Assembly: GCF_024330105.1 (NCBI RefSeq)
Contig: NZ_JANDHW010000004.1
Span: 124,001-188,000 of the forward strand
DNA: 64,000 bases
Reading direction: 5' to 3'
Source of the DNA: Coprobacter tertius
GTDB lineage: Bacteria; Bacteroidota; Bacteroidia; Bacteroidales; Coprobacteraceae
Within the stretch, counting starts at the first letter, position 1. The number at the start of each line of letters is the position of its first letter. Below, in pieces: positions 45,834 to 47,761 of the stretch. The notes beneath the pieces were generated by a model. The model saw nothing but the letters and a program-made list of their open reading frames with translations. It searched no databases and was not told the DNA's origin. The translations under genes were made by a program, and so were the position numbers.

Positions 45834-45841
45834 TATATTTG
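45834..45841 (+). promoter_or_regulatory. Putative -7 element of the queuosine precursor operon
   Basis: TATATTTG, perfect -7 match. The predicted transcript start (about 5 bases further) falls at the first base of the riboswitch-like P1 stem. Confidence 0.7.
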
Positions 45842-45846
45842 CGGCC

Positions 45847-45877
45847 CGTGTGCTTGTACAACCACGTAAAAAACAAG
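45847..45877 (+). promoter_or_regulatory. Candidate preQ1-I riboswitch
   Basis: The 31 bases form the minimal preQ1-I H-type pseudoknot on paper. P1 is CGTG (45847-45850) with CACG (45863-45866). The loop contains CTTGT (45853-45857), which can pair with ACAAG (45873-45877) as P2. The linker TAAAAAAC is the A-rich strand that fills the P1 groove in this class. The start codon ATG follows at 45882, so folding would hide the translation start. It precedes a queuosine-precursor transporter and queF, the expected targets. The P1 stem is short and the ACCC core is AACC here, so this is a candidate. Confidence 0.65.
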
Positions 45878-45881
45878 ATTT

Positions 45882-46562
45882 ATGAGAAAAAATGTAAGCA
45901 TTCCCTTTATGGCATTAGGGATTTTATTTTGCGTATGCCTTATTATCTCCAATATTTTGGAAGTTAAAATGATTGAAATAGGCAGTATTACCGCCACTGC
46001 CGGGCTTATCGTTTTCCCTATTTCTTATATTATCAACGACTGTATCGCCGAAGTTTGGGGCTATAAAAAGGCACGGCTTATCATATGGGCCGGTTTCGCC
46101 ATGAATTTTCTCGCGGTAGCATTCATACAGATAGCAATTTTATTACCAGCTGCCGGTTTTTGGAACGGGCAGGAATCTTTTGCCTCGGTCTTTTCCGCCA
46201 CCCCAAGAATAGCCGTAGCGAGTTTATTAGCATTTCTGGCCGGTTCGTTCCTGAACGCTTATGTAATGAGCCGAATGAAAGTTGCCAGTAATGGTAAAAG
46301 ATTTTCATTAAGGGCTATGGTTTCTACATTAGTGGGAGAAAGTGCCGATTCACTGATTTTTTTTCCTATCGCATTCGGAGGAATCGTTCCATTTGAAGAT
46401 TTATGTAAACTTATTATAACACAAGCCATTCTTAAATCAGGATACGAAGCCCTAATATTACCGGTGACCATACAAGTAGTAAAATACATTAAGAAAATCG
46501 ACGGAAGCGACGTATATGATAAAGACATTTCTTACAATATTCTGAAAATAAAAGAAGTATAA
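45882..46562 (+). CDS. Queuosine precursor transporter (YhhQ/DUF165 family)
   Basis: A 226-residue inner-membrane protein with about six helices and the family pattern: GLIVFPISYIINDCIAEVWGYKKAR (landmark about residue 40-64) and a later SLRAMVSTLVGESADSLIFFPIAFGG (about 148-173). YhhQ imports preQ0/preQ1 or queuine-like bases. It is 13 bases from queF, and the leader has a candidate preQ1 riboswitch. The three together form a scavenging and conversion unit for tRNA queuosine. No queC, queD or queE is nearby, which fits salvage rather than de novo synthesis, though those genes could be elsewhere. Confidence 0.93.
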   Translation: MRKNVSIPFMALGILFCVCLIISNILEVKMIEIGSITATAGLIVFPISYIINDCIAEVWGYKKARLIIWAGFAMNFLAVAFIQIAILLPAAGFWNGQESFASVFSATPRIAVASLLAFLAGSFLNAYVMSRMKVASNGKRFSLRAMVSTLVGESADSLIFFPIAFGGIVPFEDLCKLIITQAILKSGYEALILPVTIQVVKYIKKIDGSDVYDKDISYNILKIKEV

Positions 46563-46574
46563 ATATCCTCAATA

Positions 46575-47024
46575 ATGGAAAATAAAGGACTTACCCTGCT
46601 GGGTGGAAAAACGGAATATAAACAAAATTATGCCCCCGAAGTATTGGAAGCATTCGAGAACAAGCATCCCGAAAACGATTATTGGGTAAGATTTAACTGC
46701 CCCGAATTTACAAGTTTGTGCCCAATTACAGGACAACCGGATTTCGCAACGATACAAATCGATTACATTCCGGATATAAAAATGGTAGAAAGTAAAAGTC
46801 TGAAATTGTATTTATTCAGTTTTCGCAACCATGGAGCTTTTCATGAAGATTGCGTTAATATTATCATGAAAGATCTTATAAAGCTTATGAACCCCAAATA
46901 CATCGAAGTCACCGGCTTTTTTACCCCGCGTGGAGGTATAAGCATATATCCGTATTGCAATTACGGACGACCCGATACCGAATTTTATGAAATGGCCAAA
47001 AATCGGCTCAAAAATCATAAATAA
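46575..47024 (+). CDS. queF: NADPH-dependent 7-cyano-7-deazaguanine reductase
   Basis: Reduces the nitrile of preQ0 to the aminomethyl group of preQ1. The 149-residue protein is the short type I (YkvM-like) form. The catalytic cysteine is in [16 protein letters not shown] (about 53), and the QueF motif [20 protein letters not shown] is at about 76-95. Directly downstream of the precursor transporter. A terminator follows within 50 bases and marks the end of the core region before the mobile island. Confidence 0.96.
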
Positions 47025-47397: not shown

Positions 47398-47471
47398 GCT
47401 AATTGGCTGCGATTTGCGTATCGACGAATAACTCCATAGTTAATAGTTTTGAACCGTTAAAAATGGGAGTT

Positions 47472-47761
47472 ATGAGAAGTACGTTCAGCGTTTTGTTTTA
47501 CCTGAAAAGAAAAGATGTCAGAAAAGACGGTACGGTTCCGGTTATGGGGCGTACCACCATCGAAAACGGGTGGCTCATGCGCGACCCGTTTGTCTGTCGA
47601 ACAATATGCCCATCGAAACGGTCAGTTCGATTCTGGGGCAAAAGAACATCCGCACGACACAAATCTACGCCAAGATTACCAAAGAGAAAGTTAAAAATGA
47701 TATGACCGCTCTTGCTGCGCAGTTAAACGCTATCGAGGAGTTTGCTGGTGTGGCAATCTAA
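47472..47761 (+). pseudogene. Tyrosine recombinase (integrase) remnant with internal deletion
   Basis: The first about 40 codons (MRSTFSVLFYLKRKDVRKDG, then TVPVMGRTTI) are the N-terminal arm-binding start of Bacteroidales phage-type integrases. At about 47590 the frame shifts by two and continues as LSNNMPIETVSSILGQKN followed by IRTTQIYAKITKEKV, the very C-terminal part with the catalytic tyrosine. The core domain with R, H-x-x-R and the rest, roughly 280 codons, is missing. A -7-like TAGTTTTG (47444-47451) precedes it. It cannot encode a working recombinase. It marks the left part of the island and is 14 bases ahead of the RhuM-like gene. Confidence 0.85.

Follow-up and report, generated by a model that had tools for sequence, protein, structure and literature searches.

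A candidate compact class-I preQ1 riboswitch in front of yhhQ-queF in Coprobacter tertius and other Bacteroidales

The yhhQ-queF locus and its leader

The window analyzed here is a 64-kb stretch of the 3.3-Mb genome of Coprobacter tertius, a member of the Bacteroidales; among named relatives, Coprobacter secundus is the closest as judged by YhhQ (84% identity). It contains an operon of two queuosine-related genes, yhhQ and queF, which is preceded by a compact preQ1-I-like element of 31 bases (45847-45877; CGUG-UG-CUUG-UACAAC-CACG-UAAAAAA-CAAG). The end of the 3' strand of P2 (P2'; 45877) is separated from the yhhQ ATG (45882) by 4 nt. The features of the locus, all on the + strand, are as follows.

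45834-45841, +: Bacteroidota-type -7 promoter element TATATTTG (TAnnTTTG), read from the sequence
45847-45850, +: 5' strand of P1, CGUG, with compensatory changes in two of the four pairs
45851-45852, +: loop L1 (UG), the first U of which is invariant in 58/58 leaders and is the equivalent of the U that contacts N9 of preQ1
45853-45856, +: 5' strand of P2, CUUG, identified by pair counting across leaders
45857-45862, +: loop L2, with AC at its 3' end; C45862 takes the position of the specificity cytosine and is invariant in 58/58 leaders, partly because the pattern used to collect them required a C, which is, however, seen also in unfiltered leaders
45863-45866, +: 3' strand of P1 (P1'), CACG, identified by covariation
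45867-45873, +: loop L3 (UAAAAAA), a run of A at -14 to -9 relative to the start codon that overlaps the Bacteroidota A-rich initiation region
45874-45877, +: 3' strand of P2, CAAG, identified by pair counting and a descriptor match
45882-46562, +: yhhQ (QPTR), queuosine precursor transporter (TIGR00697, 134.7 bits)
46575-47024, +: queF, preQ1 synthase (preQ0 reductase) (TIGR03139 QueF-II, 175.4 bits)

An earlier, sequence-only reading of this DNA had described P1, P2, and an A-rich linker in this order between the -7 element and the yhhQ ATG, and all three are located there. The P2 pseudoknot that it proposed holds for four pairs (CTTG/CAAG), whereas the fifth, T45857-A45873, is unsupported because the T45857 position varies freely and A45873 is nearly constant. 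Similarly, the assignment of yhhQ-queF to queuosine metabolism stands but not the restriction to salvage: the genome also encodes QueC, a QueD homolog (scoring below the curated cut-off), and Tgt, so that the operon takes part in salvage as well as in de novo synthesis. Downstream of queF, at 47403-47761 of the window, there are short ORFs that resemble fragments of a tyrosine recombinase (IETVSSILGQKNIRTTQIYAKITKEKV) and probably represent what is left of an integrase gene.

If the transcription start of yhhQ is placed from the promoter box, at a predicted 45845-45848, the leader would be about 35 nt long, and the element would take up almost all of it. This length is ordinary for Bacteroides, where the median length of 5' UTRs is 32 nt (PMC7366714). 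Riboswitches are seldom sought in such UTRs. Plain minimum free energy folding of this leader is uninformative (z = 0.89) because the method cannot form pseudoknots. A pseudoknot descriptor (a P1 of 4 bp with a closing G-C pair, followed by U; AC ahead of P1'; then AAAA and a P2 of 4 bp) produced a single match when both strands of the window were searched, at the yhhQ-leader site on the + strand; there were no matches on the opposite strand or in 10 shuffled windows.

Conservation, covariation, and spread of the element

We located YhhQ homologs in 392 Bacteroidales genomes and read 90 leaders, distant controls included. Within the close YhhQ subfamily, 62 leaders (58 of them distinct) carry the motif directly 5' of the start codon; it is absent from the leaders of a distant subfamily (approximately 40% identity; L083-L098). 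The collecting pattern listed the observed P1 and P2 words without forcing matched combinations and thus did not predetermine the base-pair statistics. In the alignment of the 58 distinct leaders (A1), standard pairs account for 97% of the cells compared to 88% in shuffles, and 25 cells are changed on both sides, where shuffles give 3.6 such cells and slid controls 0-9; the covariation score is 0.202 against 0.043 in shuffles, and the signal is lost when the partner strand is slid. Because L3 is variable, some P2' strands were out of register in this first alignment, and P2 was therefore recounted on hand-defined segments; in the hand-curated segments, 231/232 cells of P1 and 230/232 cells of P2 are paired. 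P1 is the main source of covariation, with pair 1 appearing as C-G, A-U, or G-C and pair 3 as U-A, A-U, or G-C, in several families. In P2, the changes are fewer (C-G to A-U in two families and U-A to A-U in one), and the covariation is modest, many of the pairs being invariable. At the level of aligned leaders, covariation establishes the pseudoknot: compensatory changes, which the sequence-only reading had named as a check on its proposal, are present in P1 and, more weakly, in P2. Together with the queuosine gene context, found wherever it is readable, they support its identification of a preQ1-I riboswitch.

The conserved unpaired bases point in the same direction. The U of L1, the C preceding P1', and the adenines of L3 make ligand or minor-groove contacts in class-I structures (PMC11625349), and all three sites are conserved in the Bacteroidales leaders, with T7 (the start of L1) and A26-A29 (L3) of alignment A1 invariant. 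The spacing between P2' and the ATG is 1-6 nt in the 58 leaders, with a mode of 4. Some leaders depart from the common form: two look degenerate (L073 and L074), and one lacks the motif (L020). In two others (L056 and L079), a long insertion in L3 separates P1' from the AAAACAAG tail. One clade (L021, L024, L032, L037, and L076) has a shifted P2 (UUCY with GGA), the 3' strand of which holds a Shine-Dalgarno (SD)-like GGA.

The promoter box ends 5-8 nt 5' of P1 in 12/62 leaders, as it does in the window, an arrangement in which the aptamer would begin at or near the first transcribed base. In about 19 leaders, roughly a third (L014, L017, L018, L041, L051, L059, L061, L080, and others), a hairpin of 5 bp or more ends right where P1 begins, which suggests coaxial stacking or protection of the 5' end; the match in the window itself overlaps the promoter box and is meaningless.

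A short, highly conserved sequence right after a -7 box could also be a protein-binding leader element or a DNA operator for a queuosine regulator, and the S15-Flavobacteria leader model gives a weak score here (18.6 bits, cut-off 46.5). We rejected this match because it derives from the promoter box and the A-rich tail. Given that the pairs of the pseudoknot change in a compensatory manner, that the ligand-contact bases of class I are kept, and that the distance from the promoter box to P1 ranges from 5 to 76 nt across leaders, such an element appears very improbable.

A covariance model built from the yhhQ leaders of alignment A1 detects two strong sites in the C. tertius genome (E about 1e-8), one 5' of yhhQ-queF and the other 5' of queC. 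The latter site, 80 nt upstream of the gene, was outside the training set and has an E-value of 2.2e-8; the QueD homolog of this genome lacks the leader element. In other genomes, sites were found before queC-queF and before queD-queE. A scan of public genomes with the exact pattern returned at least 81 matches; among the matches listed, the next recognized gene is YhhQ in 69 and QueC in 9, and the sequence ends first in 3. The genomes with exact matches include gut and oral Bacteroidales, such as Bacteroides graminisolvens, Odoribacter laneus, Tannerella forsythia, and C. secundus. No exact copies were found in viral contigs. Among 392 genomes sampled across the phylum, the matches came from the Bacteroidales only, under strict filters that may lose weak or divergent forms. 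The motif is short and Rfam is silent on it, as would be expected of a chance pseudoknot in an A-rich leader, but the match in the window against none in shuffles, the genomic E-values, and conservation across many families make this vanishingly improbable; covariation and gene context refute it.

The element was also identified in Desulfovibrionaceae (Mailhella), where it accompanies yhhQ, often with queC and queF, in loci of 56-61% GC (L118, L151, L171, L174, L176, L180, and L183). The spacing between P2' and the ATG is 2 nt in 6/7 of these loci compared to mostly 4 nt in Bacteroidales. In the YhhQ tree, Desulfovibrionaceae are nested within Bacteroidales at two places. Horizontal transfer of the operon along with the switch into Desulfovibrionaceae is likely, and the two places of nesting are consistent with at least two transfers. 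In one Mailhella metagenome-assembled genome, a yhhQ-queC-queF operon is headed by a tandem pair of complete preQ1-I aptamers, which are 3 nt apart and leave 2 nt to the yhhQ ATG (L186:5710-5772 and L249, G779:C2, about 155065-155134); this arrangement comes from a single genome and lies at a contig end. A 2022 survey lists preQ1-I among the riboswitch classes not found in tandem (PMC9481103).

Relationship to known preQ1 riboswitches

A search of Rfam, another check proposed in the sequence-only reading, was negative: the preQ1-I model (RF00522) never reported the yhhQ-leader site, at either the gathering or relaxed thresholds, and the preQ1-II (RF01054) and preQ1-III (RF02680) models had no match. 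RF00522 yielded nothing above the cut-off in any of the 295 Bacteroidales genomes searched (0/295), and the best yhhQ-leader relative tested (L081) scored 22.9 bits against a cut-off of 39, at the same place as the motif. The gathering cut-off is a detection threshold rather than a structural definition, and divergence of the Bacteroidales form from the model apparently explains why the site is missed. Five other Bacteroidales loci (L250, L251, L252, L253, and L255) contain type-I-like preQ1-I elements that score 25-30 bits with RF00522, also sub-threshold, and differ in sequence from the yhhQ-leader form (AGACAGUUCG...AUCCUGUCU...AAAACUAGG); one of these (L251) has a QueC-like start downstream. 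Bacteroidales thus hold at least two preQ1-I-like forms.

With respect to structure, the yhhQ leader combines an H-type pseudoknot, the specificity cytosine, the U of L1, the adenines of L3, and location at queuosine genes, all features of class I. The subtypes are told apart by AC before P1' in type II, UC in type I, and UU plus an AAGG SD in type III (PMC11625349, PMC10622847). The mark of type II is present at 45861-45862 and in 56/58 leaders. Type I, with UC before P1' and UU after P1, does not fit the window, which has AC at 45861-45862 and UG at 45851-45852, and neither does type III, with UU after P1 and the AAGG SD in P2', because the window has UG and CAAGA, 4 nt from the ATG. Considering all these features, we regard the yhhQ leader as a probable translation-repressing preQ1 riboswitch of class I, compact and nearest to type II.

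The type II riboswitches of Thermoanaerobacter tengcongensis (Tte) and of Bacillus subtilis queC (Bsu) share with the window element the H-type pseudoknot, AC before P1', and an A-rich L3; Tte controls translation, as proposed here, and L3 plus P2' of one leader (L081; UUAACAAAACAAG) is identical to that of the solved Tte type II aptamer (Tte sequence from PMC10639078). The window element differs from both in having a P1 of 4 bp instead of 5, a P2 that is a full 4-bp Watson-Crick helix, a CAAGA tail without the GG of an SD, and no recognition by RF00522. The Escherichia coli yhhQ type III riboswitch (Eco) likewise controls yhhQ and has AC before P1', but its P1 is followed by UU, its loop is rich in pyrimidines, and its P2 buries an AAGG SD, where the window has UG, CUUG, and an SD-free leader. 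The closest mechanistic precedent is the type I riboswitch of Carnobacterium antarcticus (Can), which has the class-I fold and represses without full burial of the SD, by indirect occlusion (PMC11625349); unlike the window element, it binds a pair of ligands and has UU following the 5' strand of P1 and UC preceding the 3' strand.

The same aptamer could respond in the cell to preQ0, or to preQ0 together with preQ1, instead of preQ1. YhhQ imports both bases (PMC10622847), the controlled genes include queC, the product of which is preQ0, and the type II Tte riboswitch discriminates only about 17-fold (PMC10622847). Nevertheless, the controlled operon encodes QueF, which makes preQ1, and the class-I aptamers characterized in the cited papers favor preQ1, so we consider preQ0 an unlikely physiological ligand and retain preQ1. 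PreQ1-I riboswitches of types I and II have already been reported from Bacteroidota, reportedly by McCown et al. in 2014, and these records may include the leaders described here. The riboswitch class is known; the new points are the proposed SD-free platform, the gap in Rfam, and the tandem copy, and the spread of the SD-free arrangement through Bacteroidales is also noteworthy.

A proposed mode of control without Shine-Dalgarno pairing

Bacteroidota start translation without SD pairing. Adenines are enriched at -14 to -11, and in Flavobacterium johnsoniae, initiation correlates with adenines at -13, -12, -6, and -3 (PMC6847099). The window leader contains no SD, SD-like motifs are present in 3/58 leaders, and G is nearly absent at -14 to -8. 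At -12 to -9, the leaders are 92-98% A, compared to 42-53% for 43 genes in the window. In class-I structures, the adenines of L3 pack into the minor groove of P1, and one of them touches preQ1 (PMC11625349). From the positions of the L3 adenines, at the sites of initiation, and this packing, we infer that ligand binding would hide the A-tract and block the 30S channel, with preQ1 as the ligand and an OFF switch as the presumed outcome.

Under this scheme, the A-rich leader would stay open at low levels of preQ1 and ribosomes would start on yhhQ-queF, leading to import of preQ0 and preQ1 and reduction of preQ0 to preQ1. At high levels, preQ1 would pair with C45862, the CAAG tail would close P2, and the adenines of L3 would enter the minor groove of P1. 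The folded state would hide the A-tract (-14 to -9), the region where adenines favor SD-free initiation, and the pseudoknot, 4 nt from the AUG and inside the 30S footprint, would block initiation. Conceivably, this is an order-wide SD-free expression platform in which the A-tract of L3 doubles as the A-rich initiation signal that ligand binding directly removes; we find this idea plausible and advance it tentatively. Alternatively, the coincidence of the A-tract with the initiation region could merely reflect the chemistry of L3.

The geometry in which the aptamer is flush with the start codon and blocks translation is not universal because, in the Coprobacter queC leaders (L100:1501-1619, L234, L235, and L236), the aptamer lies 75-170 nt before the ATG. 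These leaders contain downstream segments complementary to the 5' flank of P1 (CTTCCG/CGGAAG and CCTTTC/GAAAGG), and for two of the leaders, the 5' side of P1 is predicted by folding to pair with the downstream segment (CUUCCG/CGGAAG), resembling an alternative helix. This suggests a second expression platform, possibly of the anti-aptamer type. The distant aptamers and the predicted helix, along with the termination mechanism of the Bsu type II riboswitch (PMC10639078), would also accord with an aptamer whose main target is not translation initiation but transcription or the stability of the mRNA (through pausing, Rho, or degradation). For yhhQ, such action seems rather unlikely: the gap between P2 and the AUG is only 4 nt, a scan predicted no terminator in the leader, where there is no room for one, and this geometry is common to most leaders. 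For the yhhQ leaders, we thus favor repression of translation initiation.

A 2024 review of preQ1 riboswitches forecasts translation-controlling riboswitches in bacteria that do not use SD sequences and points out that the absence of the SD makes translational riboswitches hard to find by computer (PMC11625349). The Bacteroidales yhhQ-leader family, missed by Rfam, fits this forecast, and the yhhQ leader is a small natural system that makes SD-independent control directly testable.
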